Below are positions 13,423-51,400 of a DNA stretch of 64,000 nt, one piece after another. Source of the stretch: Watersipora subatra (lineage: Eukaryota; Bryozoa; Gymnolaemata; Cheilostomatida; Watersiporidae); NCBI RefSeq assembly GCF_963576615.1, contig NC_088708.1, positions 60,561,196 through 60,625,195 on the forward strand. The letters are read 5' to 3'. Position 1 is the first letter of the stretch. Each line of letters starts with the position of its first letter. Both the position numbers and the translations under genes were made by a program. The notes beneath the pieces were generated by a model. The model saw only the letters and a program-made list of their open reading frames with translations, was not told the origin of the DNA and made no database searches.

Positions 13423-14989
13423 TTATATAGTGAAGTATCCTCCATCTGGTTTTCTAGAATATCCCCTGTTGGTTGTTTCAGCATGATGTCCGGCTAAAAT
13501 AATGAAATAAAATGATGACTCTCAATACTATGGTTAACATTTGAAGTATTTTTACACCTTGCATTTTTGTTTGGTTTGTTATCACAGTTAAAAGTTTAAA
13601 GTATATCAGTGTTAAAAGTTCTAAGTAAAACCTTGATGAAAAGCAATTCTGGGTATAGAGCTAGGAACCAAGTAATACACCATAAGGAAATAATGATAGA
13701 ACCAAATAAGTGTTCTATTCAGCAGTGAAGCATTCTTAAAATCACTCTACCAACCGAGCTTTTGTTGACAAAATTAAGATGAAAAGATGTTTTGGTGAAA
13801 TGTTTATATTTTACTCACTAATAGTTAAAAGCCTGTTAACAGGTCATTACGCTTATTATCTGAATCCTGATATGTCTTTAACAAAAAAGGGATTTACCAT
13901 TTTATTCAATAGCTAATTATATTCTGAGAGCCAATTGTATACATTGTAAAACACATATTATATACGTACAAATAGCTCCTTTGGCTTGGTTTAGGGATTT
14001 CTTTTCTTTTTGTTCACATTTCTGTAAAGGGTGACCCAGTGCCGGAGGTGGTACAACAACCTCCACTACTCTGTTTTTCAAAACTCGTCTGGAAAAAGAA
14101 TATTTATAGCCTAATTACTTGATGCAGATTTAACCGCCAATGAACAATTGACTAAGGACTTCGAACACATAATAGCAAACTAAATCGGTGTAATCAAATG
14201 ATGTAGTCAAACAACTTTACAAATAGTAATAATATACATGTAAATTTCTAAAATTTACATTTTAATTCCTTTGCTGTGCTAAAATGTCTACTCAAACCTT
14301 TCTACATAAAAAGGAAATGTGAGAAACAAATACATTGGCGATCTATTTTGAGATTGTTTCTGACTCAACAAGTATACTTGTCTGTTTTACAAGTAAATAG
14401 TAGAACTGTTTTAGCTCTCACCCCTCTGGGTTGCCCTGAGTTTCCTTTTGCATGTAAACATCAGCAGGACCACAGAGAAAATCGCCATGTTGATTATAAG
14501 TTGATTTTATGACAAAGTCAAGACTGTTTCTAGGGGCTTGCGGATCAAAATGAAATACTTCTCGCCTAGCACTGCTCAGGGTTGGTGTTTTGTGGAGTCG
14601 TACCCATGGATCTTTTTGACCTATAAGATGTTCTCCTGTGCCATACGGTTCTTTCTGAAACATGTACATAATTCAAATTGAATTAAACTTGCAAATCATG
14701 ATAGTCACTACAACAAAATCTCAAATGATTGCTGTTAGTACAAATGTGGCTTTACCTAGACTCATATAGAGTGCTCTAGAGACTAGCCCATGGGCAAACA
14801 CTGCTATAATTGCATAAGACATAATGATGAAATATCATCACAAAATTAGCAATTTATAGATTTCAACGTGATTCAAATTGACTAAAGTATAACGAAAAAT
14901 CTCAAACTCACCCGCTCAAAAACTCCTCCTTGAAAGGTGTTGTCATTTTCATACAAGGGGTAAGGATAAGGGTCTCTTGTCGAAGCCAT
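13423..14989 (-). CDS. CFAP276: CFAP276 (C1orf194-type), ciliary microtubule inner protein (4 exons)
   Basis: The vertebrate family binds inside axonemal doublet microtubules of motile cilia. Exons on the minus strand: 14989-14912, 14654-14422, 14088-13970, 13493-13423; phases agree, 501 nt, 166 residues, against about 169 in human. Family landmarks are the N-terminal ASTRDPYPYPLYENDN, then PYGTGEHL, DPWVRLHKTPTLSSARREVF, FDPQAPRNSLDF, the RVLKNR segment opening exon 3, and the C-terminal TTNRGYSRKPDGGYF, all in the expected order. There is no signal peptide or membrane segment, as expected of a structural axonemal protein. The ATG has a purine at -3 (AAAATGG). It is transcribed away from ELAPOR across a 494-bp gap containing an X-box, so control by RFX factors is likely (inference). 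Confidence 0.93.
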
Positions 14990-15483
14990 TTTACTGTGCA
15001 CTGCCGGGAAACTGCAATGTATTTATAGTCAGTTGACACTAATTTTTTTGCTTCCTGTCAGAAAGGCATACAAATACAAAAACTCCTAAGAGTGTGAAGG
15101 CAGACAGATAACGTGCTCTGAATAAAACGTTTACTGTTGCACTCTCACAACACCGACAGTAGTTTGATGTTACCTAGCAACCAAAACTCCCTGACATTCG
15201 AACAACGAAAATACATCTTATTTCGTTTAAAAAAATTTGAAAATTGTGGGCAAATTTTTGTAAATTGATTAAAAAAAGATATATAATTAGATGTTGTGAA
15301 GTTAGGCAGAGAACAGTACTGTACATCATGCCGAATTCACGATTATCGATGGCTATTTGTCGGAATGCGTCTCAAACTCTGTTTCCGGTTTGATGCTTTT
15401 TTTCTAGAGTTTTTAACGATCTTAGCATAGGCTAGTACTGAATACAAACAACGGAAACGATTAACCCCTACACGAGTCACATA
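14990..15483. promoter_or_regulatory. Bidirectional promoter between CFAP276 and ELAPOR
   Basis: The two start codons point away from each other with 494 bp between them, so both 5' UTRs and core promoters must fit here unless an untranslated exon lies elsewhere. The region has no repeat and no open frame of note. Its clearest element is the X-box at 15169-15181. No convincing TATA box was identified. Confidence 0.7.
15169..15181. promoter_or_regulatory. X-box (RFX-factor site)
   Basis: GTTACCTAGCAAC matches GTNRCC, one-base spacer, RGYAAC in both half-sites. RFX transcription factors bind such imperfect palindromes in promoters of ciliary genes. It is 180 bp upstream of the CFAP276 ATG and about 300 bp upstream of the ELAPOR ATG, a typical position. 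The site is seen directly; binding is inferred. Confidence 0.7.
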
Positions 15484-18400
15484 ATGTGTCGTTGTGGTGT
15501 TAGCTTGCTTGTTCTTACAATATGTGCTTTTGGAAGTTATGGGATACCAAACTGTTCAGAGGTACGTCAGCTTCGTGCCTATGTAATACTTTGTTGGATA
15601 TATGAAGTGACAGCGGTAGACACCGTAAGCCTATCGTACTAAGCAAAATGTAATAGAAAATTAGAAAGTTAAATGAATATAATTTACTGAAGTATTAGTA
15701 GCGGGTTTTTTCGTAATGATAACCAGTAGGCTACTGATCTCTTTCGTGCATAGGCTGAGCCTTTTTGTAACTAATACAATACTACTGTGGAAACTCTAGG
15801 ACGATCTGTAATGAATGTTTTTTGAGCTACAAACACACACCTTATATACGTATACGCTGGCATAGCTGCGCATTTTTGTATTATTTATGTATTTTTTAAA
15901 GTAATTCCCCGACCAGTTTAGGTATGAAAAAGATAAATTGTTACTGGGAGGCTCTGTCAGGCATTATTTAGTTAGCACTGTTAACTATGATTTGTTTTGT
16001 TTAATCATCCATTTAGATTAATAGCAGCATGACTTGTCATATTTTACTGAATATTTGACTATTGATGCTTTTCGCTTAAAAGAGAATTAATGTTGAAGCA
16101 TGGATCTCATCACAAACGAATAGATAAGGAATAAATCTTTTGCAATAACCCTGCAACGTTTGTTTTCTGTATCTTGAATATTCTTTTTTACAAATATTTT
16201 CTTGATTAGTCACTTTCTAATTAATATTATGTATCAATCTATTCTTTTTAGTGTTCTAACTTGTCAGAAAGCCATTTTCTGGCTAATTACCTTTCATTTA
16301 GCAGCATAATTTTTCATTTGAATGGTGTCACTATTTTTTATTATTTCAAGTTTGTCCAACTCAAAAATACATTGTATATAAAAATTAAGTGGTGATAGCT
16401 CAGCTAAAACCACCCTTTTCCTTCAAATATTAAAATGGATAATATTGCAGGAACAACTTCACTATAGATACACGGAGTGTGAAGCAGACAACTCTCGTTG
16501 GAGAGTGTCAGTTCCCAAACCCACTGAGCACTGTTCTGTTGCCAACTCCAATGTACCCGTGCCTGGACCTAAGTGTGGTGAATATAACGCCCCATACGTA
16601 CTACAATATTGACAATTTTTTTGAGATATAGATAATACTAGCTGTACTATGCGGTGTTGCCCGGGTGATAAAAAGTCTTTGGACAGAAAAATTATTTGTA
16701 GGCTATTTAACATTAAACAACGTTTGCTATTCTAACTTTCAAACTACATATCATGAGAAAAGGGTTTCGTGTAATTGAAATAAATTAAGAGAGAAAATAA
16801 AAACAACTGTAAAGGTTTTCAAACATTGTCAAACAACTGGACCTTTTCGAACTTCATATCATGAAGAAAATGTTTCGTGCAGGTCAAATAAATTAAAAAA
16901 ATAAAATGACTATAAAAGGGTTTAAATGTAGCCTAAATGTGAAATAATTAGCAAGTAATAGTTAAATTAAGTCCGTCTTGCTTTGATTGCAACAAGAGAT
17001 GATTCGGTAATGATACAATTAATACGAACTGAGAAAACAAAATAAAAATTCTGAATATGTTGAATTAATAATAACAATTTTTGCATAGAAGTGTGTGTAT
17101 AAAAAAGGTTACTGTTCCACCAGAAGCTATCCATGAAAACTCCGAATCCGGCGATGCTGGTACCTCTTGATACTGGTACAAATGTAAAATTGAAATATCT
17201 GTCTTTGTCTGACGGAACGGTGAGAGAGTGTAGAGACCATTCCTACTCGAGATAATACAATTGTTCACGTGAAAAGTATTGACCTTCACCGTGATTTAGC
17301 AAATAAACCTCACGATAAACCAAAAATAAAAGTTCACAAAAAAGCATCGGGTTTCATAGAGTTAATAGAATTCATAGAGTTTCAAATAATACGTCATTTA
17401 GCATGTGCATACGCTATACAGTATATAGTAATGTTTTTGATCAATACGCCATTCGTAGCTCAGCGGTAGAGCTCGTGGTTAAAAAAACTTGTAAACGAAA
17501 TCTCCGTGAGATCAAATTCATCAGGATGCGAAATGTGAATTCTAAGATTATAATAGCAATAGCTGGACATACCGAAAGACAGACGACAGAAAACAGACGA
17601 AAAATTTGGAGAAAAAAATATATAGATGCTTGAAAAGAGTCATGGTTTTTAAAACAAAGTTATTTGAAAAAAATTTTTCAAATTTTTCGAATTTTTCATT
17701 TAAAAGTCTATCTTTTGATGTCTATGATTTTTTTGATAAATTGGATTTTTTCGCCCACTTTTGCTCATGTAATTTGTTTGTATTGTGCAATGCACATCAG
17801 AATGTTGGTGAACCAAATTTTCAGTATTGTGACCTACTGGTTGACTTGCAACAAAATTCACATTACCGTTATTTGATATGAAAAGATTCACCATGTCTTA
17901 CTCTGTTGTGTTGTAGGTGCAAAATATGTGGAAAGGTGATTACATGCTCTTAAAAGCTCATAAACGAACAGAAAATCGCAGCCACACGAGACCGCCGTAG
18001 TTTGGATTCCCTTTCCAAAACGGCTCAAATGTGACACAGTTGTGAGAGATGGTTTCTGTTTACACTTTCATGCAATCTTACTCGTCGAAATATTTTCACA
18101 ATTATACTTCACGCATTCAATAAAACCATGTCTGTTAACCATGTGTAATGCTGTCACTTTTAGCAGTGATATCTTATAACTTACCGTAAAAATTTGTTAA
18201 ACAATTTAACCTTACCCCGAAGGTGTACATCTCATTGTCTGATAATCATGACGAGCCTGTTGGTCAGCTGTGATAATTGAAAAGTGCTGCAAAAATTATT
18301 TGCGAAGTATTGGGTCACATGGTCAGAGAACGACTTTACGATTGAATAATGCCGAACCAAAACTGTAAAGTAGCGAGCATCTCTTTTTGATACGGGTCTT

Positions 18401-21400
18401 CGATAAAACCCGAAGTGTTTGTCATAAACCATTACTACGATAAGTTTTATATTGAGCTTTGTATTGGCCTTTCAATTCACGTGAGAACATACGTGACAAG
18501 ACGATAACCAAATTTTGTGGTTACGTCATCGAAATAAAGAGATTCCAATCTACGGCGGCATTTCGTTTTTGAGCTTTTAAGAGCTTGTAATCACATTTCC
18601 ACATATTTGGCACTTACAACACAACAGAGTAAGACATGGTGAATCTTTTGATAGCAAATAACTGTAATGTGAATTTTGTTGCAAGTCAACCTTTAAATGT
18701 GACAAATTCTTATATATTGCTTGCATTCAACAGTCATATAGAATTATAATGTGCAAACTACGTGTAGGTTATTGGAGTAGAGTAACTAGTGGTTTCACAC
18801 AAACTATGTGTAGGTTATTGGAGTAGAGTTACTAGTGGTTTCACACAAACTATGTGTAGGTTATTGGAGTAGAGTTACTAGTGGTTTCACGCAAACTATG
18901 TGTAGGTTATTGGAGTAGAGTTACTAGTGGTTTCACACAAACTATGTGTAGGTTATTGGAGTAGAGTTACTAGTGGTTTCACACAAACTATGTGTAGGTT
19001 ATTGGAGTAGAGTTACTAGTGGCTTCACACAAACTATGTGTAGGTTATTGGAGTAGAGTTACTAGTGGTTTCACACAAACTATGTGTAGGTTATTGGAGT
19101 AGAGTTACTAGTGGTTTCACACAAACTATGTGTAGGTTATTGGAGTAGAGTTACTAGTGGTTTCACACAAACTATGTGTAGGTTATTGGAGTAGAGTTAC
19201 TAGTGGTTTCACACAAATTATGTGTAGGTTATTGGAGTAGAGTTACTAGTGGTTTCACACAAACTATGTGTAGGTTATTGGAGTAGAGTTACTAGTGGTT
19301 TCACACAAACTATGTGTAGGTTATTGGAGTAGAGTTACTAGTGGTTTCACACAAACTATGTGTAGGTTATTGGAGTAGAGTTACTAGTGGTTTCACACAA
19401 ACTATGTGTAGGTTATTGGAGTAGAGTTACTAGTGGTTTCACACAAACTATGTGTAGGTTATTGGAGTAGAGTTACTAGTAGTTTCACACAAACTATGAA
19501 TGAGAGCCAAAGACAAAAGGCAGTGAGGTAGTGGGGGAAAACTGTGCCTGTTCCAGTTGCTACCTCACAATTAATCCTGCTTTAAGGTTTACTAAATAAA
19601 CTTACAGGTTCTAACTTCAACGGTCTTTCTGTAGCATTAGGCTATATATGTAGTCAGTTATCCTTATCACACTTGCCAATTCATGTTAGAAGAGTGTTCA
19701 CAGATTTGTTACATGAAGATCAAATCAAGATTGTTTGTCAAGAAACGCTGATCTTTGCAAATTTATGAAATAAATTGTGATGCTTTCAGAAAAAAATCAT
19801 GGTTTAGATCAATAATTTAAATCTTTTGATTTTTTTGGCCAACTTTGATAGATAATAGTTTTATTTAGATTAAAGTTTTAGTGGCATTCATCTTGCTGAA
19901 GAATATGAACAAGTGTACCATTCAAATCATTCAGAAACCTGCTGGTACCACTATTTTGTGCCCGACCAATGTTATATTTGTGCTTGCCTATGTATCAACA
20001 GCTTCCATTTGCTTGCTCATTACAGCAGTTGGCGCTTGCGTTTAACTGATCGCATACTTTGCTTCATATGTGCAATTCTGGCATTGTTAAAGCTTTTGTC
20101 TTGCTATGAATCTACTCCAACAGAATTTAATAGCTTTGAGTTTTTAAAGTATTTGTTTTACTCTGTTAGACTGGAGTGCCTTGCTTTTATATTAAGCTCT
20201 CTTATCTACCTTTTGTAAACTTTGAGTATTGTTTTATTTTGTTGTTTTTGTTTTTTACCTCGAGTATGAAATGGCATCCTATTTGTTATAAAGGAGTAGG
20301 TAGACGTGGTCTTAACTGTAATAATGTTACAGGATCTTCCTGTCCAGTTGGTCAATACCTGAATATATCTGGTGACCAGACATGCAAGAATTGTCCAGCT
20401 GGTAGCTACTCGGTAGGCAATGGCATCAGGTATGATCAGTGGGAAACACTACCCGAGGACTTCTCCGTCTCTCCCTCTGATTCAATCTCTTCCCAGCATG
20501 AAGGCTTCAACTGTAGTATATCTTCTGCGGTGTGAGTATTTGTTAGCATATTGCTGGTACATGCATCAGAAATATTTGTAGTGAGTGATTGGCGGTGGTC
20601 TTTGCATCGAGTGTTGTGATAAAAACATGATTTGTAGCAGTTAGTAAATGTAGTAGTGGTCAATATATAGTTGACAGTAGTCAGTATATGGTTAGTATTA
20701 GCAATGATATACAGCCCCCCAAGGATAGCCGACGGCTATCATAAGGGCGGGGTTTATTGATGGAGCCCTGTTAGGATTGTGCTAGCCTGGGTTTCGGAGC
20801 AAACACGACTCTCGCGGGGCGGTCGCGTTGCCTTGTTAGGTTTTGGAAAACACGACTCGCTGTTATCGTTTCATTATCTCATTCAGTCAGTAGACCCCGC
20901 GGTTCACAATAGCAAACCCTGAATTTCTACAATGTAGGGGTGATACCTAACCAAAATAATGGAACCATGCAAAATAAAACATTTCAAATTACCTACTTTT
21001 AGTAATTTTAAAATTGTTAAAGGTCGTAGTATATGCTTATAGTTGAATATAATTTACGCGAAATTATCCGAACAACGGCCTTTTTTCCTAGTTTTTGATT
21101 AATATTTTGCTACCCCTAATATAAAATGACAATCTCTTTCATCGTTGTCACATTGTTTTACCTGGCCAATAAGATGGGACAGCAGGCAAAGCTGTGCAGT
21201 GTAGTTTTTATACTCAAAATCTACATGTAAATACAAAACCGAATTTGTGCTATTTTACCATTGTGACTAGTAATATCACGAATGCTTGCGAATGGCGACT
21301 GACTGATCGTAATGGTGACAATATTGGGATACTATATTTATTTGGCAACAAAATGAATTCAACAGACAAGTAAAATAACCACTATAGTTCATAATATTTA

Positions 21401-24400
21401 TAAATTTACAAGGGGCTTTATTCAGTATATTTGTTTGTTCGGGTGCCATGTTTGGGTTCATCCCAACAGAGCTCCATCATTAAACCCCGCCCATATGAGA
21501 GCCGTCGGCTATCCTTGGGGGCTGTATATCATTGGTATTAGTTAGCACAGAGTTTATAGTATTGTTTATTGTTTGTAGTAAGACATGGGTGCCAAAGGGT
21601 ACTTATTTGGAAGGTTTGCCCGAGACCTGCAATGAGGCTCTCCATCTCACCGTTGAGCTGATCACAGATGGGGAGTTCAGCATACAATACTTTCACACAT
21701 ACATAGGTGTTGTTGCCATGGCTCGGGTACGCGAATCTTACAATACGTTCACATGTACATTCATGTAAATATTGTTATTATGACTCAGGTAAACAAACCC
21801 TGGATTGGTGTCTCATCGCCCTGCTTCTTGTGTTCTATGACTCACTCATTGACATGCCGTCTTTATCTCATGCAGTAGATGACTTTCTCATTGCTATGTT
21901 ACATGTTTGATACCAAGTAGACTCCCACTCGGTATATTGAGTGTTTGCAAAGGTATGGCTATATATCTCTTTACACACCCAGCTGTCACCAAGTCTGACA
22001 CCATACATACATTTGTGATATTTGCTACACGGCAGTGAACAAATTTTAGTTCTATATAACAGTGCTTGAGAACATCGGAGACACCAATTTAGATGGTTTG
22101 TTGGCTTTATTGCAAACATATTCTATTAATGACACTCAGGGGAACTCCATTGAGTACTCTGATATAACCTAGCAAAGCAGCTGATAACATGATGTGTGAC
22201 TATTGGCTAACTGAACTGACAAGTGCTATCATAACAAGCTAGAAGCTAGAAAATCATTGAATCGAAGTACTTGTTATAAGTGTTTTATTGGTTTTAGTTT
22301 AAAACAAGTAAGTATGTTTATCATAAAGTCTTAGATGCCAATGCTAATTCTTCAGTATATATGTACATCTACTAGTAACGACTAGCATTTGGATGGTGAT
22401 TAGAATGATTATTCCCAATGGCCAATGCAGATATTTGTCTGTTTGTTCAGTTTATATATTGACACATAAATTAGGTAATATTCAGCTCATTGTCTGACAG
22501 TTGTATCGAAAGTTTTTACAAAAATTGACAGAACAGTTTTTTTTGCAAAAACCCATAAACAAGGTATTATTGTATTGGTGGAGATTTGTCCGCTGTTGAT
22601 TGGCTTATGCAGAAACAAGTTTCTCTGTTTGTTGTGACAAATTCTTTTTGAAAAGCTTCATCACTTCAAGCAAAGCAACTGCTGCTTTTGTTGATAGGTG
22701 GAGAGCATGTGCCAGGCTGATAAGGCTGACCATGGCCTAGACAATTTCAAAGTTCTCCCTCCTTCTAAAGATGAGACTGCTAAAACTGTGATGGTACGTT
22801 CTCAGGTTTCTCATCTGGGTGTTACTTATCAGAATCTTCCCACATTTTACCAGCCACCATATTGGATTACCATATTTGTAGCTTAAGTTAACACCTGGGA
22901 AGAAGAGGCTGATCATATCTATAATGGGGTATCCAGGATCAGCACCCGGGGCTCGCTTCGCTATCAAGGCTATAGAAGTTAGAGGTAAGGACTCATCTTC
23001 CGCATCTGACATTGTGTGTTTGTGTGTAATGTTGGGGACCATTGATTTCTCATTCTTGAAACTATGTCGTGAGGTGTAATATGTTTGCTATTTATCGTTG
23101 TGTGCATTGTCCAATATAGCGGTGATATTGTATATTACACATGTATGTAGGAATGTGCACGCTTGTTCACATCAATTTCTTGGTTTTGTTTGTTGCAGGA
23201 ATGCCGTTTGCTACCGAGTGCACCCTTTGTCGGCCGGGATACTATTCTAGTGCTGGTTCTGGTTTTTGTACCCATTGTCCAGAGAATACATACACCGCGA
23301 GTCAGGGTTCCAGTGAGTATTATCATCAGTTCAATAATTGCTGTCAGCTAGACAGATAAATGGTTTGTCTCGCTCATCTTCCTACAATGTTTAATGTTCG
23401 ATTCACTCGTTTACTGGAGTTACTTGCTCTTGTTTGCTTCAGGCAATTCTTATTAAAGATTGTCTTATTTAGGTGGGTGCCTTCCATGCGATGCAAAGGA
23501 TTTTGCTCCACCGGCCTCAGCAGGTTGTAAGCCACGGCCGGCATGCAAAATGAGTGATTACTACAAATCTATTGCTCCTTGTGAGAATGGAACTGTGAGT
23601 GTCTCATCTTTGGTCTCTGTGGCAAAGCCTTCTCTCTTTTCGAATCCATTTTTAGTGGTTTTTATTTTTTCGTAATCAGAACTTCCTGTTTATTAATATG
23701 GCTGTGTGAAAAAGTGTATGACACTATATTTTTCTTTAGATGCAAATTTGGTCAGAGTTTATTGACATGTACAATAGAAGCTCCTATAATGTAAAAAACC
23801 TTCTTATGATATAAATGTCACTTAAAAGAGAGAATTTATGTGAAATTTTTTATTCGTATTTTGCAAGAGATTCCATGTAATGTAAAGCATTAAGTCGCTG
23901 CGAATTCCCAGATTTGATCTGAATAATGACGGTCCCATAGATAGCCTTAAAAATATCGTTTTCCAACTTATCGCACTTGGGTTAGAAAAAGGCGTGCAGG
24001 GGTATCTCTATTATATATACTAGTACCTGGCACTCTAGTGTGTCGTGAGGGATCATCAGGTGTGTCGATAAAACGCAAAGAATGAGTAATTGTACAATTA
24101 TTCAGAATAACCTATAGGCAGTTGATTGATGCAGATGTTAAAGTATCGGTCTACCAAACTGACTGTCACGAGTTAGTCTCTTTAAAATCTATCTTTTATT
24201 GTAACCTCTAACTCTGACACCCCTCGAACAGACACCTGTCTTATTATACTAAATATATAGTTTTCTTTTACTTTATTTTAGACACATGCAATATTTTCAG
24301 AGTCGACTTTCTTGTGTGAAAAAGAGAAAACTTGATTCAAATTGACCTTGAAGGCATGCCCTCCCCTTAATTTAACGTAAAATGATCGTAATCATGGATA

Positions 24401-27400
24401 CTAAACCAAGTGAAAAAATGAGAAAAAAGGAGAAAAGTTGTCGATACAAACCACTAATACCACAGTTACTGTACAGTCATTGAATCAAAAAGTTACATTC
24501 AGTTTTTTTCCTTTTTGAAGAGCCAAAGGGGTACCTGTTCATAAATTTTGGAACAGATTAGGCTATTTACAATTATTTTACTGTTCGTATAATGCAAAAT
24601 CCTTATAATGTAAACATTCCAGGAATTGATTATTTACATTGTAGGAGCGCCTACTGTACATTTATTTTTTTTACTTATTGGGATAGAGGGATGAGTGTGC
24701 AGTTGCGTCATCACATCTAGTGGATGACAACTTCATTATTTCAGTCGCACTATTTATTATAGACTTTATTGTGCCAGTGATTAATTTCTATTGACAACTA
24801 AACGATTCTTTGAACAGTAGATTTGTCAAGTCTGAGGGTTCTGATTTATCGGATGATCTTACCAGTCAAAGGCAACTTTTAAACCAATTATGTAAAGTTA
24901 GTCGTTAGAGTTACATGTGCAGGCGGGCGGATCTTACTTATAACTGCGATTTTTCATTGGTTCCTATTAAGTTTTCAAATGCAGATTTCATATATGTCTG
25001 ATTTTTTCCCGGAGTCATTAAGTGACATTTTTTATAAAATCAATTGTTTGACTAGCCTTTAGGCATTGAATTTTTTTGTATTGATCAAAAGTTCTGTGTT
25101 TGTGTTCACTACAAACAAGGTTTGTAGTAAACACAAACGGTAAAAGTATTTGTAATTACAACAACGTTGGTAATAGGATTCAATTTAGTAATGAGTGTTT
25201 GTTGCTACTATATTAACATACAGAAATACTAAAGCACATGTTTTCAGTGAGTTTGTCATTGTTTCGATATAAAATGTATACATTGTTTATCAAAAGCTGG
25301 AATAATATAGAAAACAAATATTTTAGCAGTAGTTAACTAGGTCAAAGAACTGCTGTTACATTTAGTTGTTTTTAGTGTTTCATAAAGTTGTTACATTGTC
25401 TACATGAAACTTAGGCTAAATAATAGCTGTTTATAAAAAAGAAACACTTTACTAGTTCCTAATGATTAGATTTCTTTTCCGATTTCAATGAAGGCATCAG
25501 CGTATGATCTGTAATAGCTGGTTATTGCTCACTGAAATCTGATCATCAAACGATTGAAGACTCGCCTTCTAAACTTTCATCTGCCATACAGCTAAATATC
25601 ATTCAGTCATATAGAAAAAATTGTTTGAAAACAATTTTAAGATAAAATATTAACGGATGAGAAACCAAAGGCTAAATTGTGTGATCGTACCCTTTGATTT
25701 ACGATTTGATAGACTCGTATAGTAACAATAATTACAATTGTCAAACTTGGATGTTACTAGTGTGAATAATTATGGTGAGCAAATAGTGAAAGATAGATAG
25801 ATAATTATGGCAACAAATAGTTTGGCTAGTCAATTATTTTGATACTCCAAGGAGTAAGATCGTGAAGCAGTACTCTTCTGTCTAGAACTAAAGTCTGTGC
25901 CTGTCTGAAGCTGTCTAAAAGTTCTCTGTTGATTTTCTTTTAAATTAAACTGGCTGAATAACCTTGTTTACTACTACAAATGTGTGCTTACTGCAGACCC
26001 ATGTGAAGTTCAGTTGGCTTTCTCCTCAATACTGCAATGCTGACCATCCGGACAGCGTGGATCTTCCAGTGCCAGGTGCTGTTGAGGATTGTCCTCCTTG
26101 TAACCCTGGTCAGGAGCTGAATGAGACTACAGGTACGCTTTTGGGTTCTAGTCAATTTTGAGTTATGTTAGCTTTTGATGTATGTTAACAATGGTAGCCA
26201 GAGGTGATTCACTGTATATGTTAACAATGGATGTTAGCAATGGTACCCAGAGCTAGTACATTGTATGTTAACAATGAATGTTAGCAATGTTAGCCAGATC
26301 TGATACACTCTATGTGTTATCAATGGTACCCAAAGCTGGTACATTGTATATGTTAACAATGTTACCCAGAGCTGATACACTATATGTTAACAATAGTACC
26401 CAGAGCTGATACACTCTATATGTTAACAATGGTACTCAAAGCTAATACACTGTATCTGTTAACAATGGTACTCAGAGCTGATACACTCTGTACGTTAACA
26501 ATGGTACCCAGAGCTGATACACTGTATATGTTAACAATAGTACCCAGAGCTGATACACTGTATATGTTAACAATGGTACCCAGAGCTGATACACTGTATC
26601 TGTTAACAATGGTACCCAGAGCTAATACACTGTATCTGTTAACAAGGGTACCCAGAGCTGATACACTGTATCTGTTAACAATGGTACTCAGAGCTGATAC
26701 ACTGTATATGTTAACAATGGTACCCAGAGCTGATACACTGTATATGTTAACAATGGTACCCAGAGCTGATACACTGTATCTGTTAACAATGGTACCCAGA
26801 GCTGATACACTGTATCTGTTAACAATGGTACTCAGAGCTAATACACTGTATATGTTAACAATGGTGTTACTATGTTAGCACGATCAACTTGTTTGTGTGT
26901 GAAACCAGCTGATCTTTTTGAGAGAAGTTTGATAGTTTGAGATTATTTACTTTACCTAGTTGAGATTATTTACTTGTTTCATGTCATCTGATACCTCAGT
27001 TTGTATTTTTACAAAACTAACTGCTTTTAATTTTGCTGTTGTGCTACGCTTTATCTCTGAACAATGGACACAACATCAAGGCATTTAATTATTGCAAAGT
27101 TTATTCAGCTTAAGATTAGGCCAAATGAGGTGTACATTTAGGCTTCCTCACAGCTGTAGGTTACACATATGGCATCTTCATGATTGCCCGAAGTTTCAGC
27201 ATCATAAACCACCTGCTAATGGACCTTTGAAACTTAAATTAACTCAAAAAATATGCATAGGCAAAGTATCTATAAATGTCGTTTGTTAACAATGTAAAGC
27301 CAAAGGCTGTTATGAACCCCTTTTCTTACAGGCCAGTGTAGTTACTGTCTCGCCGGCACTTTTTCGGATGGTTCACAGTCTTGTGAGGTGTGTCCCCTTC

Positions 27401-30400
27401 ATACGGAGGCCAGACGCTCGTTGGTATTCAACAAGTTTAATACACTCCCTGATCGCCTCACTACAAGCTGCGTCTTGGTTACTGATGGTATGCATTTGGC
27501 ATCAGCTGTTTTCAGTAAGGCCTTTAAACTACAAGAATGGCAGGTGGCTGTCTATATAGAATATTTTGAGGGTTCCTCTGTATCACTGACTTAAAACGGT
27601 TTGTTCAATTAAGGTGTGTATTGCTTGAGGTTGACTCATTTCTTGTTCAGGTTAATGCTGACTGTCAACTACAACTTAAATCAGTGTTCTTCCATGCTTA
27701 TGACTATAATTCTGGCAGCTTTTTCTGGTTGATTCACTTAGAGATTAGGGATTGTGCTGGTATGTGTGTATGCAGTCGTGTCAGAAATTATGAGGCTACC
27801 TCACATGTTGCGATACATTTGCTGGTAGCGATGATTTACTGCCTTAATTTTGCTAGAAACGACCACACCAATATAGATGCAGAATTTTATAATGATTACT
27901 ATGGAGTGGATTTCTAATAAGCAGCAGTTTCTAAATAATTTTGTTTAATGAAAATGCGTAAGCAATTTACCTTGACAAAAATCAAAAGTTTGTTTAGTTA
28001 CTTATTGCATTTTCAGCTAACTAATTTGGTTACACCGGCACAACATAGTTGGAAAAAACTCTTGTAATAATTGATGGCCGTGAATGGGCACTCAGGGTGT
28101 GTAAAAATGTCTAAGGATTGAGCTGGACGGGCTATATAGGAGGGTCTGAGGATTGAGCTGGACGTGTTATATAGAAAGTTTCAAGAATTGAGCTGGACGT
28201 GTTATATAGAAAGTTTCAAGAATTGAGCGGGACGTGTTATATAGAAAGTTTCAAGAATTGAACTGGACGTGTTATATAGAAAGTTTCAAGAATTGAACTG
28301 GATGTGTTATATAGAAAGTTTCAAGAATTGAACTGGACGTGTTATATAGAAAGTTTCAAGAATTGAACTGGATGTGTTATATAGAAAGTTTCAAGAATTG
28401 AACTGGACGTGTTATATAGAAAGTTTCAAGAATTGAACTGGACGCGTTATATAGAAGGATCTGAAGATTGAGCTGGACGTGTTATACTTGTTTTCCAGTT
28501 GGCAATATGCACTGAGGGTTGAATTTTTGAACTACCTCTTCTAGCTCATTCTCCAACAACTTTCTTTGTTCTGTTGAAGCAGCCACATTCACATCAGCTG
28601 ACTTTTTTCACTCCCTACAGGCGTCAGTACTTGTTAAACGTCGGTTTTCGATGGACAGGCGTACCCAAGTTCGATGCTGGTATTCAGTGTTGGCTCACTT
28701 TTGTCCTCTTACAGATCTCTCTTTAAGGCTCATGGAATAAACCCATGAACAAACTGCATAACGCTGTGTGATGACAGAATGTACAACATAAAGTGATGGC
28801 CATGCGTTATCTCTAACACGAAGTATTGTAACACTAACAAGATTTGGGATCCGGCACTGAAGGTATATCATGATGACACAAATTCCATCACCTCCGCTAT
28901 AAAATAAGATGAAAGGCTGTTTTGCTGGAACAAGGATAAATCTCTGCATCCAAGGAATTATGTTCTAGTAATTACATTGTAAATGGCTTAATATGCACTG
29001 TTTTCATGATGCACAAACTTGAGCCAATCTGTAAGTTAATTGCATCATGGAAACTTCATAAATCTGCAAGCTAAGTGAGTTTTGTGATTCGCAAAACTTT
29101 ATCGATTCCATCACGCTTGCGATTAATGGAAACAGCACCTGCGAATGATGCGCATTAAACTACCGCGCCGGCTATTCGATTTTAGCTACGTTTGATACTT
29201 CCGTTTGTCCTCGTTGACGTTGTTGTGTCGCTAACACGTGCGTCGCTAATTAATAATTTACAGCGTACAAGTTCTTACCTATTTTCAACAAGGTGCCGTA
29301 GTCAATTTCTTCATGCGAATGTCCATAGAACCACTTATTCACACATTAAACAACTCCAAATCCTGGAGTTGTTTAATGTGAATGGGAACAATCATGGGAA
29401 CATCGTGATGGCTCCAGCAAGGGTGCCAATATGAATAAAGGCGTGAATTATTGGCTGGTTTCATTTCTGACAACACTGCAGGAACGAAATTACATGTCTG
29501 ACCAAAAATGTACATGTACCCTTGGTGGTTATTTGATTTCCTATTTCCTTTAGTTCATTTACCAATGATGAATAGTAAGTATGCTTCGTAGATTCATGGC
29601 TACAAGAGTATGTTGTAGCAGGTGATTGTTTAGGCATAGGTACTATTTAAAGAGTGGTTGTCTTGGTTTAGGAACAGGTGGTGGTTATGGTTCATATATG
29701 TAAGTGCATCTTGTCAGGTTTAATATTGGGATATACATGTATAAGGTGGTTGGTGAAGGGCATGGGCGGGTGTTGATAGGTTGGTGATCAACATCTAAAA
29801 TAGTTTAATATATTTTGTATTATGTAGCTTATTGGCTCTAATAGGCCACCAGTATTAAATGAACACTTGAATCTGGTCTCAAGCATTTATGCTGACAGTT
29901 TCTAGATTCGTAATCAAATATGAATTATTATAAACCAATATTTAACTTGATGAATTACTGAAGCATTTAGCGCTGAGTGACTTATATGGTGGTAGAATAG
30001 TTTACCGGTGTTATTAAGGTTACCGGGCTGCTTGTAAGATCAAGTCTGTCTCATCTAGACATCGAGAGACTAGAATAGCAGAGTGCAATATGTTGAAAGA
30101 GACACCCATAATTGGAACTAGCAAAGTATTAGGGTTGGGAGTCCTTCTGATACAAAGTTTCAATTGGACTTGTCAGCTACCTCGGTTTGGGCTTAAATGT
30201 GACTGGAAGAGGGTGGTAGCGTTAGTGAATGAGATGCTGCTTTTTCATATACCTCATCTATGAGTGGCATTTACGGATAGACAAAATAATACATAATTGT
30301 ATTTTTCTCAATCTTACAAATGAACAGAGTGCATAATAGGCTGAAAGCGTTGCAATAGAGAGGATGTAAAATAATTTTCAAATTGTTAAAAACAATGATT

Positions 30401-33400
30401 TAGAGCTAAAAAAAAGAGTGCAATTTATTTAGGTGTAAAAACCTACAAGTTTGTCGTACCTCTCACTCGAATGATAATATCGGCTGTGTGGCTATATATA
30501 TATATCTGACTGTAAACTTGTGAAAAAGCCATTGAGTTGGCGCTAACTTGAAATATTTTTGTTTTGTATGCGGAATAGTCAGTATTAGCAAAAGGTACAT
30601 ACGCGTCTGATGTATGTGTTTACTATAAAGGTTATACTTACCAAATTGGTTTGTTATGGGGATATTGAATACTTAACACAGCAACTAGTGATTAGTATAT
30701 TTTAAGACACAACAGACAACAGTCAAGGACCACTGCTTATGACATAGATCTTCATTTCATAATCCTGGGTCAAGTGCTGTTTTGGGCCTACTCTCGTATA
30801 GCTTCTCTGCAGTTGGCTCCAATAGCAGAAGCCACCCTTATGCAACAGGCTCGGAGTCTACTTGCCAGACATTAGGTATACATGTACTGCGTTGCTCCAT
30901 TGAATAAACCTAGTCAGCGGCAAGTAAACAAACATATTCTTTTAGCCAAATTGAACCAACAGTAAAATGGTCTTTCGCAACTCATGCACAAACATCATCC
31001 TCCTTTCCAATTTCAATGTTGTGTTGTTGCCAGATCCCCACTGATACAGACTCAGTTTTCTGTGCAATGTCTCTATAAGTCCTTCAAAACTTTTCCCTGA
31101 CGATACCAGCCCTTTTTAAAACTGACAAGAGATTGCCCAGACAGATCTTGACAGTCAACCTCAACTGCACAAACAGCATATTGCCATTCTTCTATTTTAG
31201 TCTGAGCACGAATTCTCTGACGAATGTTTTCAACTTTTTCTCATGTCCCTACTGCTTGTTTTCTTCCCATGGAACTGTTAGCTTTGTCATGATAACTTCT
31301 TTGTATGCCTCTCAGCAAAGGATTTGGTCTGGTCATTGTTTTTTTAAAGCCACATATAGAAGGACTTGTAGCCACACGCTTGTAGCTGCCGATCAAGGCC
31401 AGCTAGCATAATCTACTTCCCTTTAGGCTTAAGACCAATCTCTTTTTACCTAACATCATTGGCTCATACATATTAGTTTTGTTCACTTCAATGGCTTCTC
31501 TAAACAAAAGCCGGAGAATCTATATAGCACTTGATTACGGTGTCATTTTAACATGGATGGTGGATGCTCTTAAAATGTGCTTCAATATGCATATGGGCTC
31601 ACTGCAGCACTGATGGCATCTTTCATCTCAAGCTACCTTCTATCCATTAAGGTTTGTAGGGCTTGGCAGCTGATCATATACTGAATTAAACAATAAACAT
31701 CTTAATTGATTCAAGACTCCAAATGTCAGACTATTTGAGTGCCCAACTTTCTACTCCTTCCCATGTTGTTCAGCGACATTGGCGTGATGACAAAATAGCT
31801 TGTGCTTGTCATTAATCTTCAACACATCTAGCGTCATCTATCGCCATATTCCTTTTTGTTTTTAGGTACCTTGTAAAAATCCCCATGCTTTTGCCATCTC
31901 AAACCATGTTTTCCTGATGTAATGACCCACCTATTTCTCTGATCTGTAATTTCAAAAGAGCATCCCTGACCTTGCTACCAACATCCCACTCGACATCATT
32001 GGGCAGTTCTGATTGGTTGGATATTTAGGTTTTCTTGACATAATGGATAGCGTGATTTCATCAATTTTATATTCTTCCTCTAAATACCTCATTGAAAGTG
32101 AGATGGCGAGTTCTGCTACATATAAAGCATTTGTGTTGATATTTTGAGACACCTCTAGCCACTTTTTAACTTTAACAGTCATCATTTGTTCTTTTTACGA
32201 TAGCGGTACACCATAAATTTGAATATTTAAAATAACAGACGCATATTTTAATTTGTGTTTCTTTAGTGAGGGAAAGTCATTGGAGGTAATGCAGTGTTTG
32301 TAGAAATTGATTAATGGGAGATTGCTGTACCTTGCTTTCAATTCATCATTGCTTTGGCTTGATGAATCATTGGATTACTTTAAGTAGCAACTTTTCAAAA
32401 GCATCGGCTGGTTTCACACTGAATGATATGGCAAAGACATTCAACTTTCCTTGCTTAGCTTTCACGTTCTGAAATCTTCGCTCAAATTCATTGAGCGTGC
32501 TGCACACTCATCAGCATATTTATATGTGCTTTTAGGAGTTTGATGTCGCATAGTCAGAAAATGTGCGGTGTTGTCTACTTTCAATTGCACTTACCACAGT
32601 TTTAGTTTAGCTTCAAAAGCTTTCACATATGACAGGAAAATACTAAAAAGTTTATTCGGCCCTTGTAGTTTTCGGTTCAACTAGAATAAGTGGTTTGTAA
32701 TGTCAACCGTGAGGCAAGATCAATTGACCACTTGCTGTCACCTAGTTCCAAAAAAGCTTGCCTTTCATCTCCATAAATTCTTTGGTTTCTTACCTCGGCT
32801 TGTAAAAGCGATTCAGCATGCTTGTGCGACTCAACCATCTTATTTCACAATAATAAATAATGTCACTGTACTGTGACTCCAAATTATTGAGAAACTGTGC
32901 AAACTGGTGGTTAGTGAGGCCTCTACTTTTAATGAAATTTATGCAAGATAGTATTTTTGAGATACCATTGGTCATTTCTAGTGACTGAGTCCACAGATTC
33001 TCCTGATGTATAATGCAGTGGCACAATACTAAACCGTTTGGTTCCAGAATGAGATGAGATAGTTCTTTTTTTACATAAACAGTTAATCATTTCTGTTTTG
33101 TGACCTTTGCTGAAGCTCTATCCGTGGTAAGTCCACATAGTTTCTCCAATTAAGCTCAAATTTATTCATAGCAGCGACAAGCTTTTCAAAGATGTCCTCA
33201 CCTTTCGCAGTACCAACAACTACTCGAATATTTTTAACTCATCAGTAATGCCACGAACAAATATAGCTAATTGAGCAGTATTTGTTGTCTGTTTTCTCAT
33301 CGCAAGTCTGAGAATAAAATTAGAATTTCTTCATTGACTTGTCTAATGTTCTTTTAATATTATCTGCTGTATCAGTAATCCGATCTGAGCTGAGATTGTT

Positions 33401-36400
33401 CTTCCGAATAGGCTGATGTTCTTGAACAAATTTAATTTGTCTGGTGCCAGCAGTTCTGCAGCAGCGATAATGCACTTCTTCAAAAATTCTCCTTCACTGT
33501 GAGGTCTCAGCTTTTTTACAATTAACCCACTAATTGCATAACTAGTTTGAAGACAACTTTTATTCTCAATAAGAGGTCTAGTAAATGCAGCTTGTTGCGA
33601 CTTCAAATGCTGTTTAAGAGCGTTGATCTTGTCCACTCATTGTTGTCTAGTCAGTTCAAAGAGTTTACTATGAGTTGTTTGGTAATGGCATTCCAGATTT
33701 ACTTCTTCCATCAATACCATAATATCTCTACATACCAGGCAAAAAAGAATTTTGTTGTGTTCCACAAAAAAGTCATTAGTTCATTGTTGTAGAAACACTT
33801 GATGCTCTGCATCTACTTTTATTCATTTGGTTAAGGTAACCATTTTTTGCACACAGTCACATGATTTATAAATAGTGCAAGATCCAACAAAGATGACCGC
33901 TTCCATGTTTGGTCATCAATAACAGTAGCTTAATCACAGTTTTTTCTCATTCATCACGGATATACTGCATCTGGTTTCTTGATAGCCAGCAGTGTGAGTC
34001 AGTAAGTTAATAGTAATAGGTAAATATTATTATATTACTAGACTTTATCGTTTATCTTTCACTTATTATTTGCTTCTGTTACTACTGATTTTTTTCCTGC
34101 ATGCTAAAGGGCTTGATAAATTAGCCTGAAGAGCCTGATTTGGCCCGTGGGCTGTAGGTTCCTCACCCCTGCTTTAAAGGCAATGAGGATTCCACCTTCT
34201 TGCCTCCTACTAGCATGTATTGGTTGTTGATTAACCTTGCTCTTCACACCTGAACCAAACTTTTCCAAACAACTAATGCAGTAACTTTGGTAAATACTGT
34301 GAAATACAGATCAATTTGTAGCACTGAATTGCTCAGCAATTTATTTGTTTCAGTTTCCTGATGCATAGTTGGTATGAGTGTTGATTGCATACCCAGTATG
34401 GTCTCCATTGTGGTGTATCAAATCATCTGCTTTACATGCTGTTGCACTTCAGTGCTCAACCACTTACAGGCACCCTCTCTTTGTTCTATGTATTCTCGTT
34501 CAGTTGTGAACTGTCGCTGACACACACAAGTTCATAAGCGTTCCAAGTCATCAACTGTAAAATCAGTCTGATCAGGACTATTGTTCTCTGCATGGTTCTA
34601 AAAATCCTGGGGTATTTTTCCTTTGTAAACCCTGTTAACTACAGTATTTAGAGGGTGATCTTGCAATAAGATCATTGGTAAGCAGGTTGCGAGCCCCCCA
34701 CTCCCAGTGCGGTCTTTTCAAACTGTCAACTGCGAGACATAACATAGAGACAATAACATAACAAGAGACATAACATACATCAGTCAAGGACCACTGCTCA
34801 TAACATTGGTCTACAGCTAGAGACTGTGGGTTGGATGCAGTTTTAAGTTCAACTCCGGGTCAGCTTCTCCATTAGTGACCCCAGCAGTAGAAACCATTCC
34901 CATGCAACTGGCTTCAGAGTCTACTTGTTAGATCTCAGTTGTACTGCATTGTTCATAACACATAGCTGACCGGCACAAGATGAGCAGGCAGATCCTCATG
35001 GCCAAACTGAACCAACAACAATATTACCTCTCACAACTCATGCACAAACCTCAACCCCCCTTTCACTTTTGAACAAATTTTGCTGCCAAATTCACACTGA
35101 TGCAGCCTCAGCTTCCTGAGCGACTTGCATGTACCATAGCAATGAGTGGTCAAGATATTGAATACTTACCTATATTGAATACTGCCAATCACTAACTGCA
35201 TTAGGATAATGAATACTTATCATAATAGTTAGTTATCAAGATATCAAGTTTCCTCAAGTGTGCAATGCCAGTTTTGCATCATTTACAAGTGTTATTGAGT
35301 ATAAGACACAGTCTAGTATTCTACTACGAAGTTAGTAGCTGTGCTACCCGGCGTTGCCCGGGTAATAAAAAAGTCTTTGGTCAGAAAATTGATTTGTATT
35401 TAACATATAACAACATTTTCCATTCCAACTTTCAAACTACATATCATGAGAAAAGTGTTTTGTGTAGTTGAAATAGTTTAAGAGAGAAAATAAAAACAAC
35501 TGTAAAGGTTTCCAAACTTTGTCAAAGAACTTTTAAACTTCATATCATGAGGAAAATGTTTCGTAACAGGTCAAATAAGTTGAAAAAAATAAAATAACTA
35601 TAAAAAGGTTTAGATGTAATTGTGAAATAATTAGCAAGTAATAGCTAAATTAAGTCGGTTTTGCTACATATACAATAAACGATGATTTGGTAATGATACA
35701 ATTAATACTGGGAAAACAAAATAAAAATCCTGAATATGTAGAATTAATAATAACATTTCTTGCATAGAAGTGTGTGTATAAAAAGGTTCTTGTTACACCA
35801 GAAGCTATCCATCAAAAATTTGAATACAATGATACTGGTACCTTTCGACACTGGTACAAATGTAAAAGTGAGATATTAGACTGTCTTTGTCTGATTGAAT
35901 GGTGAGAGAATGTAGAGGCTCTTTCCACGGAGACGATATAATTGTCTGTGTGAAAATAATTGGCCTTGACCCCAGATATAGTAATTGAACCTCACAAAAA
36001 TATTTCTTAACAGGGTCATCGTAAGGCGTGGCCGCATCAGTAAAATAATCAGTGTGCACTATAGCTATAGCCGGAATGACAGATCCACGGACACGCATAC
36101 TTTGAGATATATATATATACGAATATATATGTAGTTTTGCAGTTCGAGTAACTGGCAATAATGAAGTATTTATACATTTATCTGTATCATGACAGTCGAC
36201 TACGCTTTGCAAACTCGCTAAAATAATCTTTGTCTAACATGAAAACTTCAAAAATGAGCAACCATATCTGTCTAGCAATGTTTTTAGACCGTGACTTCTG
36301 CGACAGCCAGAGCTCATGGGTCCCACATGACAGCTATATGCAGGTGTCAGATACTGTCGATGATGACGCGTTTGCTGTTCTGCATGTGAATGTGTCTGGG

Positions 36401-39400
36401 TTCTCAAAGAGGAGCATAGATGGCCGAGTGTATGGCAGCCTGAAGTTTAGCTTTGAAATGGAATGTGAAGCTGAAGGCCTCTGCATTCTCTACGTCATGC
36501 AGGTGAGACTACGTAATAATCGTATTCTTGAGTGTCTGGTTATTAAACAGTACTTCTAATGCAACTATCATGAAATCAACATTAACATATGTTTTAAGTT
36601 AAAGTTTCCATGAAGATATGTTCCAAACTTGAAATCTTCATATAGTTTTTATCTGAAGATATATATATATATATATATTTGACTGTACATATATATATAT
36701 ATATACAGTCAAACATGGATAACTCGCCCACGGATAGCTCGAACACATGATTAACTCGAACGGTTTCTTTGGTCCGTTCCCACGTAATGATAAATTGCTA
36801 TAGATAACTCGACCTCAACTCTGTTAACTCGAACAGTTTTTTGCCCAACGGCTACCGAGACAGTTGTTATCGCTTTAGAAAATCACTTTATTCCAAGTCA
36901 TAGAGGTAAACCTCAACTTTTCGTAAATCATAGGCGTCGTTATTACCACCATCGGCAAAATATTTTTGTCAACGACTTTTCTAAAGGTTTGGTGAATGTT
37001 GATTTTTACCAAATATCCGCTTAGCAATCGCCTTTCGGAAGCATGGAAAAGTGAGGTGACCTTCGCATAAACTTCAAGAAAAATTGGCAAAATTGATCTC
37101 GGTTAAAACGTTCAAAAGAAAAAGATGTCTTTTCTTCTGAGCATTTCAACAACGATCAAGTTTTGCCAATTTTAATCTACAAATGTCCTGGCAATAACAT
37201 CCCCTCAAACAGCAAAACAATCTCAAGTGATAGAAAAATCTCCTATACTTTTTGATAAAAAAGTTTTAAAATTTACATTAGAAGCATTTAATTTGAAACA
37301 AGCCATTTATGCTTTTGATTTCTATTATAGTTTGTATATGTGCATGTATCTACTAATAAATAAATAAATAAATACATGGACTTGTGACAGTGTTCTGATA
37401 ACTTGAACGCTCTGATAACTCGAACACTTTCGCTCGGTCCCGTGAAGTTTGAGTTATCCATGTTTGACTGTATATATATATAGTTAGATATATATATATA
37501 TATATATATAGATAACAATAATAGATAGTTATAACACTCCGCACTTTTTAGAGCGTAGAGTGTTGTTAGCAGTAGGCCTGACCACTTATCTATTATATAT
37601 ATAGATATATACTTTTATAATTGTCACAATTTATGTTCCTTTCCATTTTTTTTACCTTTTTAACGAAATCTGACAACTTAGTTGGAATCCAATACTCTGA
37701 AAAAGGGATATTTATGTCAAATATTCGATAGTACTCTGTAGACTCAAATAAAATATATTTGATCATGCATCCCTTGTAACAAATATTAAATACTCTTTTT
37801 GCGTCTGTTCACCATGCTTTATGTACAAAAGGCTTTGCAACAGGAGGGCAAATTAACTTTCAAAGTTATCAGCTTTTGCAGACTAGCCTTTGTGCTCTTA
37901 CAACTTATTGCCCGAACCCTTTGAATAGCTTGAAGATATATTTCCGTTAAACGCTGATTTTTTCAGTAAATGGCTGCTTTCTCTGGGTTCGCCAATCATT
38001 GATGCTGCTCAAAAACAAAACATTTATTAACTTTCCACAAATTTACCCTCGCATGCCATGACTAGTATCGACTATCTATTAAAGACTTGGGGGTCATAAG
38101 GTCGGTTAGTTTAGCTAGTTATCTTGATTCCTCTCTGCATGGGTAAAGCATATCTTGAGTTTGCAGCTAGCCAATCATATCACTGATAGAGGTTCTTTGG
38201 TAATTATTTAGCCCTGAGTGTTATTTAATCCACACCCATATTTTGTTGCATGGATTTGGAAAGTTATATTTGTGAGAGGTCATGTGTTGCAGATACAAGA
38301 TTTAGCATAGTTTTGTACAATACATATGTGCATGACGAAAATCTAAGACTATTGAAACGTTTTTTAAAGAGTTTATGTCATAGATTTTAGGACCAAAAAG
38401 GTCACCATATAAAAGAGGATAACTTCAAAAGTTAATTTGTCCCCTTTTGCGAAACTTGTATATTTTGGCATCAATATTTTTATTTTTGATATAGCAAAAT
38501 AGTACATTTTCCGCAGAAGTATTATTCAGAACACATGCGCATAGAGAACTGCATATAAGTTTATTATAATTATAGCATTTGGTAACCATCAACTTCAGAT
38601 TTAGCTCAAGTGATTAAAGTGTTGGCTATAATGCTTTTTTCTAACTAATAATTTCAAACTCGCACTGATACCGCAACTCAGTTGTGGTTCTTGCAGTACG
38701 CAGCATCTAAGTCAATGTCTTCAGCCAATTGCATCTTGGTGACTTACAACTGCTATAATAAAATTCCAGCATTCCGTAGACAGTGAAAATAAAAAGCATC
38801 GTGGTGTTAGACAAGGAGGTAAATTTGTCAACTGAGTACGCTGACCTTTATGATGGTCGTCTATGGACAGAAAAATCTCTCTTTATTATAAATATTCTCA
38901 ACATTGAATTATTTTAAAATATGGATCCAACACTCATAGCTCCATTTGGCGGTGAGTCTGTAACATTAAGGTGATTTTTACTTAAATCAAACGCCTATTT
39001 TTTGCCAGTATCTAGTTTTCCGGCCAGGGTCTATAATGCGGAAATACTACTTGACATATTGTACAGGTTGGTGCAAGGAATCAAAACCATCCTATAGCAA
39101 TGAGTCAAGTTGCTCGCAACTATCATGTTGGTTCAGGGTTATTACTGGTTTTGTCATGGTGTATTGTCAACCTTCTCAGTAAAGTCCTATCCTTGCATGA
39201 CTATTTTATCATTGCTCATCCCTTCATGTTTGTAGGCAGCACTAAATCCACCTCCAGTTGTGCTGACTAGAATCAAGTCATAGAACTTCATATATAAACA
39301 TACATGTATCTAAATTATGACAGAAAATGTGATTAGCGTCGGTGCGATGTCGGGGAGGTAACAACTGCAACTTGCAAATTCTGACTACTATAATCACAGG

Positions 39401-48400: not shown

Positions 48401-51400
48401 ACCAACTTTTTGGATGCATGCTAGAATTGGCTTCCTACATTCATCACCATACCTTGGCCTAGACCATAGTGTTACTTTGTGTCCATTCTTCCTAAAGGTA
48501 CTTATGTTAGGCTTTCTCATTCACAGACAATGATTTGACAATACACTACCACTATAAAACTTCCCAATCCACGGAGAATTGTCTCCATGGTCTAAATACA
48601 ACCGTAACGCTGATATGTGACCCAAGAGAGAGCTTAAATGGTGAGCAAACTCTCTCTTATTATACAAATATGTAGTCTTTCTGACTGAGTATTCTTGGTT
48701 GCATATGCTAAGTCAAGTACCGTTATGATTTGAACTCTCAAGAAATTAGCTCTATTCAAACAATTTTAGCTTCTCTTCTTCAAGACCTGTATAAGCCTCT
48801 GTATACATTGGTGATGATGGTATATCAATATCTGGTTGAGTTTGGGTTGCTTCTGCAGGTACGAAATCCATACCAGCACTTTGTGTTAGTGGAACCTGTG
48901 ATGGGTGTACATATGACCTTATATGGAAGACTATTGCTGCGTGTCCCAAATGTGAGCTCGCAGACTACGATAGGATAGTAGGAGAGTGTGTGGGTGGCTC
49001 CCAAACTGTGCACTATATTCCTCACAAGTAAGTTTGCAATGATTAATCTCTAGTTGGACATACCCTTTTCTCTGATGCGCCTATTATGTGAACTTGATGT
49101 AGCATTTCCAATGCTACATGAAAATGTCCAGCAATGAAAGATATAATGAAAGCCCTACTGTGTTAATAAGTAGTTCTACATCGAGGCTTGACAACAGCAT
49201 GACTGGTTATTTATGAACAACTGTTTTGAGTTGTAATGTTTTATTCCAGATTTTGTCCTATGACCGATAAACTGAGGGCAATGAAGACAACTCAAGAATG
49301 CAGCATACTAACTCTTGAAATAAAGATTGCAGTTGGGGTCGCTTCTATAGTAGCTGTTTCGTTGTTAGCCTGTGTCATCTGTTGTTGGAAACGCAGCAAA
49401 AAGTGAGTCAAACTCTTGTGATTCCTTTGCTAATCCACCTTATTTACAACTGTGTACTACTCTATCATATTTACTACTATGTACGAGTCTATCATATTTA
49501 CTACTGTGTAGTAGTCTATTGTATTTACTACCATGTACGAGTCTATCATATTTACTACTGTATACTAGTCTATCATATTTACTACTATGTACGAGTTTAT
49601 CATATTTACTACTGGGTACTAGGCTATCATATTTAGTACTGTGTACTAGTCTATCATATTTACTACTGTGTACTAGTCTATCATATTTACTACTATGTAC
49701 TAGTCTATCATATTTACTACTGTATACTAGTCTATCATATTTACTACTGTGTACTAGTCTATCATATTTACTACTGTGTACTAGTCTATCATATTTACTA
49801 CTGTGTATGAGTCTATCATATTTACTACTGTGTACTAGTCTATCATATTTACTACTATGTACTAGTCTATCATATTTACTACTGGGTACTAGTCTATCGT
49901 ATTTACTACTATGTACGAGTCTAGCATATTTACTACTGGGTACGAGTCTATCATATTTACTACTGGGTACTAGTCTATCATATTTACTACTGTGTACTAG
50001 TCTATCATATTTACTACTATGTACTAGTCTATCATATTTACTACTATGTACGAGTCTATCATATTTACTACTATGTACTAGTCTATTATATTTACTACTA
50101 TGTACGAGTCTATCATATTTACTACTATGTACTAGTCTATCATATTTACTACTGTGTACTAGTCTATCATATTTACTACTGTATACTAGTCTATCATATT
50201 TACTACTGTGTACTAGTCTATCATATTTACTCATATGTACTACTCTATCATATTTACTACTGGGTACGAGTCTATCATATTTACTACTGGGTACTAGTCT
50301 ATCATATTTACTACTGTGTACGAGTCTATCATATTTACTACTGGGTACTAGTCTATCGTATTTACTGCTGTATACTAGTCTGTCATATTTACTACTGTAT
50401 ACTAGTCTATCATATTTACTACTATGTACGAGTCTATCATATTTACTACTGGGTACTAGGCTATCATATTTACTACTGGGTACTAGTCTATCATATTTAC
50501 TACTGTGTACTAGTCTATCATATTTACTACTGTGTATGAGTCTATCATATTTACTACTGGGTACTAGGCTATCATATTTAGTACTGTGTACTAGTCTATC
50601 ATATTTACTACTGGGTACTAGTCTATCATATTTACTACTGTGTACGAGTCTATCATATTTACTACTGGGTACTAGTCTATCGTATTTACTGCTGTATACT
50701 AGTCTGTCATATTTACTACTGTATACTAGTCTATCATATTTACTACTGTATACTAGTCTAGCATATTTACTACTGTGTACTAGTCTATCATATTTGCTAC
50801 TGTATACTAGTCTAGCATATTTACTACTATGTACTAATCTATTATATTTACTACTATGTATGAGTCTATCATATTTACTACTGTGTAGTAGTCTATCGTA
50901 TTTACTACCATGTACGAGTCTATCATGTTTACTACTATGTACTAGTCTATCATATTTACTCATATGTACTACTCTATCATATTTACTACTGGGTACGAGT
51001 CTATCATATTTACTACTGGGTACTAGTCTATCATATTTACTACTGTGTACGAGTCTATCATATTTACTACTGGGTACTAGTCTATCGTATTTACTGCTGT
51101 ATACTAGTCTGTCATATTTACTACTGTATACTAGTCTATCATATTTACTACTGTATACTAGTCTAGCATATTTACTACTGTGTACTAGTCTATCATATTT
51201 GCTACTGTATACTAGTCTAGCATATTTACTACTATGTACTAATCTATCATATTTACTACTATGTACGAGTCTATCATATTTACTACTGTGTAGTAGTCTA
51301 TCGTATTTACTACCATGTACGAGTCTATCATGTTTACTACTATGTACTAGTCTATCATATTTACTACTGGGTACTAGGCTATCATATTTACTACTGTATA

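Follow-up and report, generated by a model that had tools for sequence, protein, structure and literature searches.

CFAP276 and ELAPOR are adjacent and divergent in the bryozoan Watersipora subatra, with 494 bases separating their start codons, and the short gap between them holds a perfect X-box, the RFX-type site. The arrangement, found in a stretch of 64,000 nucleotides analysed as a whole (the window), is best read as an ancestral divergent pair sharing a short intergenic region, in which the X-box would serve CFAP276. Confidence in this reading is evenly balanced. Immediate adjacency of the two genes in human and sole is taken solely from the order in which genes are listed. The pair is probably a new instance of an already known kind. 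The first-pass annotation had placed CFAP276 on the minus strand and ELAPOR on the plus strand, 494 bp apart, and gene models, domain content and single genome matches all agree with that description.

CFAP276 belongs to the microtubule inner proteins found in motile cilia. The CFAP276 gene of W. subatra, orthologous to C1orf194, spans positions 13423..14989 on the minus strand and is made up of four exons (14912-14989, 14422-14654, 13970-14088 and 13423-13493) with AG/GT splice sites. The spliced product is 166 amino acids long, followed by a stop codon, and the phase is consistent across the AG/GT junctions; of four candidate donor sites compared for exon 2, just one preserves the frame. The product matches Pfam DUF3695 (E 6e-29) and, from end to end, the CFAP276 chains of solved structures, the top PDB match being sea urchin CFAP276 (8snb; E 6e-47, query residues 3-165); the human CFAP276 chain (7ung) is matched over query residues 2-165 (E 1.6e-29). 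These matches identify the minus-strand gene as the CFAP276 orthologue, and its diagnostic domain has a single match genome-wide.

ELAPOR, a receptor-like membrane protein, belongs to the endosome/lysosome pathway. Its orthologue here (ELAPOR1/2) lies on the plus strand at 15484..52755, spans ~37 kb and has large introns. Exon 1 (15484-15562) starts with the first ATG at 15484 and looks signal-peptide-like by eye; exon 2, also read by eye, starts at 16452. Exons could be recognised by eye up to ~52.7 kb, a hydrophobic segment being present near 49.33 kb, and the last recognised frame, C-terminal-like, ends at 52755. The model obtained by joining exons by hand is incomplete (950 letters): exon ends past exon 2 are approximate, some exons are possibly missing, and an extra 3' exon is possible. 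No frame-breaking change was noticed in this hand-joined, incomplete model. The joined exons score above the Pfam cut-off for TNFR_ELAPOR1_6th, MRH_ELAPOR1_9th and the general Ephrin_rec_like model, and below it for ELAPOR1_C (24.8 of 27 bits) and GBD_ELAPOR1-like_3rd (17.5 of 27). Two ELAPOR1-specific models above cut-off on hand-joined exons identify the gene as an ELAPOR orthologue; TNFR_ELAPOR1_6th has a single match in the whole genome, located within the window.

The 494 bases lying between the CFAP276 ATG and the ELAPOR ATG (14990..15483) are the presumed shared promoter region. The X-box, GTTACCTAGCAAC (GTTACC-T-AGCAAC), maps to 15169..15181 on the plus strand, 179 bases from the CFAP276 ATG and 302 from the ELAPOR ATG, and is nearly palindromic. 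That a perfect X-box sits between the start codons had been noted in the first-pass annotation, and the site was recovered as the sole match when both strands of the 64 kb were searched with the consensus GTNRCC-N(0-3)-RGYAAC. In 200 composition-matched, first-order Markov sequences the mean was 0.53 matches per 64 kb, equivalent to ~0.004 per 494 bp, at least one match being present in 40.5% of the simulated 64 kb sequences; a match somewhere in the window is therefore ordinary, a match in the gap is not. With three mismatches allowed the motif is found 14 times in the window against 19.8 expected, with no over-representation, and the 14-base form with a spacer of 2 and one mismatch 3 times in the window against 1.3 expected, never in the gap. 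The CpG observed/expected ratio of the gap (~1.05, computed on 14991-15484, one base off) exceeds that of the window (0.56), and is reached in 93 of 1271 sliding windows, hence not unique. Such a ratio is promoter-like, as might be expected of promoters where the genome is partly methylated. A TATAAA at 15022..15027 on the minus strand, that of CFAP276, 32 bases upstream of the CFAP276 ATG, was set aside as a promoter element, since chance alone would supply about one such hexamer in a gap of this length (hand estimate); other forkhead-like and TATA-like words found there were likewise set aside, being common by chance.

The CFAP276 start of this genome carries a consensus X-box less than 200 bp away, at which RFX binding is putative. 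The site would most simply serve CFAP276, the nearer of the two starts. In this position beside a motile-cilium gene the site, here a predicted one, resembles those of RFX-bound ciliary gene promoters. Eight matches to the RFX DNA-binding domain above cut-off were found in the W. subatra genome.

The exact X-box 13-mer occurs at 76 places genome-wide, its reversed control at 21, the expectation from composition being 24-30 and 9-15, respectively. Included among the 76 places are one five-copy and one three-copy tandem array and two near-duplicate pairs, the latter noticed among 30 loci examined, so that more duplicates are possible among the remaining places. About 68 places are left once tandem copies and near-duplicate pairs are subtracted, and the excess over composition is ~2.5-fold. 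The reversed control is itself above expectation, and the true genome-wide excess is consequently smaller than the comparison of 76 and 21 suggests; the control also understates chance, because it contains a CpG. In the five-copy array (L031, G000:C5:35423476-35423586) the 13-mer is repeated in tandem at ~25-base steps, in the three-copy array (C11:27319842) at 22-base steps.

Exon matches, 44 in all, were grouped into eight tektin genes, chosen as motile-cilium genes. Unlike RFX-bound ciliary gene promoters, the eight show no full-consensus X-box across the 6.0-8.8 kb preceding the first matched exon, the true first exon of some lying possibly further upstream. One-mismatch sites are found 2.3-5.2 kb upstream of four tektins, and a perfect X-box inside one, 113 bases past an early exon. 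The surroundings of the 13-mer were surveyed at 30 of the 76 places, cut as 3 kb loci and including that of the window. The other 29 loci were codon-scored, a crude procedure, and in 10 of them one frame each, picked by eye among the higher scores, was scanned for families. Six frames matched a family with an E value no worse than 0.01, four did not; the families are UCH, cNMP_binding, Strabismus, SEP, TPR repeats (among them an NPHP3-like TPR model above cut-off) and weak beta-propeller models. No clearly axonemal family was found at the 10 scanned loci (one frame each, out of 29); the NPHP3-like, Strabismus and cNMP loci may have a ciliary link. One locus carrying the 13-mer, L002, is phosphofructokinase-like by eye. 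A genome-wide link of the X-box to ciliary genes finds no support in the tektin promoters. The motif alone is modest evidence; its position in a 494-base gap adjoining a cilium gene is persuasive.

Human CFAP276 and ELAPOR1 are probably head-to-head, ~0.1 kb apart. The first-pass annotation had the human genes head-to-head on 1p13. Their linkage is supported by a list of five 1p13.3 genes (WDR47, TAF13, TMEM167B, CFAP276, ELAPOR1; PMC9582330, available text), in which both CFAP276 (C1orf194) and ELAPOR1 (KIAA1324) are at one locus, as in W. subatra. The first-pass annotation further suggested that the pair has been kept since the common ancestor of protostomes and vertebrates, which would require a protostome genome here; a search for COX1, meant to give the mitochondrial code, found no match. 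Similarly, kiaa1324 and c1orf194 reside together on BAC 19L16 of Solea senegalensis, for which the accessible part of the report lists kiaa1324, c1orf194, smc5 and fam107b (PMC7915175).

The flanking genes differ. In place of the human neighbours, CFAP276 of W. subatra is backed by ARP1/centractin, the dynactin actin-related protein, found on the same minus strand at window positions ~5100-11428; its hand-joined exons match alpha-centractin with an E value of 2.5e-156, the C-terminal end not being located. On the other side, a RING-finger gene on the minus strand converges on ELAPOR (frame 55454-55699, Pfam zf-C3HC4_3); no family was matched by three more frames on that side (55867-56109, 56595-56882 and 57284-57640). 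Wider conserved synteny was discarded, as neither flanking gene resembles WDR47, TAF13 or TMEM167B of the human list. As far as can be seen by comparing flanking genes with the human list, the unit kept is the CFAP276-ELAPOR pair alone.

Expression data from the literature fit the two genes unequally. C1orf194 is named among genes expressed in ciliated cells in CilioGenics, the main text of which, as distinct from its supplementary tables, mentions neither KIAA1324 nor ELAPOR (PMC11317154, available text). The first-pass annotation had predicted, from a shared RFX-driven promoter, ELAPOR expression in ciliated cells, a prediction that gains no support from the literature examined: no report of ELAPOR1/KIAA1324 in ciliated cells was found there, a weak negative, most subscription papers and all supplementary tables falling outside its scope. 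ELAPOR1 is reported in brain (PMC9582330, available text). Other contexts in which ELAPOR1/KIAA1324 appears, in the portions of the articles available, are a neutrophil-related gene set, biliary epithelium and gene lists; an autophagy gene named KIAA1324L is reported in sea urchin nerve. In the accessible text of a single-cell study of ovarian tissue, KIAA1324 is, like SST, TFF3 and AGR2, a marker of one epithelial cluster of the tumour, not of the cluster marked by FOXJ1 and RSPH1; the former cluster may be regarded as secretory-like. In Xenopus and other metazoans, genes of multiciliated cells have core promoters enriched for X-boxes (PMC5245798, available text). The members of human divergently paired genes are reported to tend to act in different processes (PMC3815023, available text). 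The W. subatra pair resembles such genes with bidirectional promoters in its unlike functions and in a distance below 1 kb, which is here counted between start codons, not transcription starts.

In the preferred reading, CFAP276 and ELAPOR would have had one short intergenic region in common since an ancestral divergent arrangement. RFX factors would bind the X-box and drive CFAP276 in sperm and ciliated cells, and this same open chromatin would act as the ELAPOR core promoter. Open chromatin doubling in this way would make the pair hard to separate by rearrangement. RFX binding, CFAP276 as the user of the X-box, and linkage caused by overlapping promoters are inferences; co-regulation of ELAPOR by RFX has no part in this explanation. 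An RFX programme common to the two genes, the X-box driving both and ELAPOR acting in the ciliated-cell programme, for instance in membrane or lysosomal traffic, is unlikely. The perfect, nearly palindromic site within the 494-base gap speaks for it, as does the listing of the two genes together at a small locus in human as in sole, according to the available lists. Against it, the literature examined, as far as available, places no ELAPOR1 in ciliated cells, the main text of CilioGenics lacks KIAA1324/ELAPOR (PMC11317154), and KIAA1324 falls in the SST/TFF3/AGR2 rather than in the FOXJ1/RSPH1 ovarian cluster. It is equally doubtful that one RFX-bound region has been driving the two genes ever since early bilaterians; were this so, ELAPOR would be an overlooked ancestral component of ciliated cells, and its mammalian secretory and endolysosomal roles later or additional.

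The genes may alternatively have stayed linked without sharing a promoter, either by inertia or because one gene has enhancers within the long introns of its neighbour, the X-box serving CFAP276 only. This is rather unlikely: the ~37 kb of ELAPOR, with their large introns, offer room for embedded enhancers, and early bilaterian and planulozoan ancestors are where animal microsynteny is reported to have gained most (PMC8851819, available text), yet a gap as short as 494 bases makes fully separate promoters less plausible. It is very improbable that the X-box matches by chance and that the two genes are coincidental neighbours. The 13-mer is just ~2.5 times as abundant as composition predicts, the tektins have no full upstream site, and one degenerate match turns up in 40.5% of simulated 64 kb windows; but ~0.004 matches are expected in the gap, a ciliary gene adjoins it, and the same two genes are listed together in human and sole in the text available. 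A chance motif in the gap was, by that expectation, largely rejected, some caution being kept because of the modest genome-wide enrichment. If both the pair and the X-box proved to be kept across animals, they would provide a clean case of why unlike genes stay divergent for very long, and would predict ELAPOR transcripts in ciliated cells, falling upon RFX removal; a negative outcome of that prediction would denote a ciliary element surviving next to an unrelated gene.

Repeated DNA lies within the span of ELAPOR. Two inverted arms, recognised by eye at ~17840-17990 and 18550-18690, are perhaps the inverted repeats of a small mobile element; the X-box search matched the same word in each arm, in opposite orientations. 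A unit of ~46 bases forms a tandem array at window positions ~18750-19500, between exons 2 and 3 (by eye). A larger tandem array of ~3 kb (~49370-52550) precedes the C-terminal ELAPOR exon; 955 codons are open in one of its forward frames, with long open stretches in others, and the array is a trap for gene finders.
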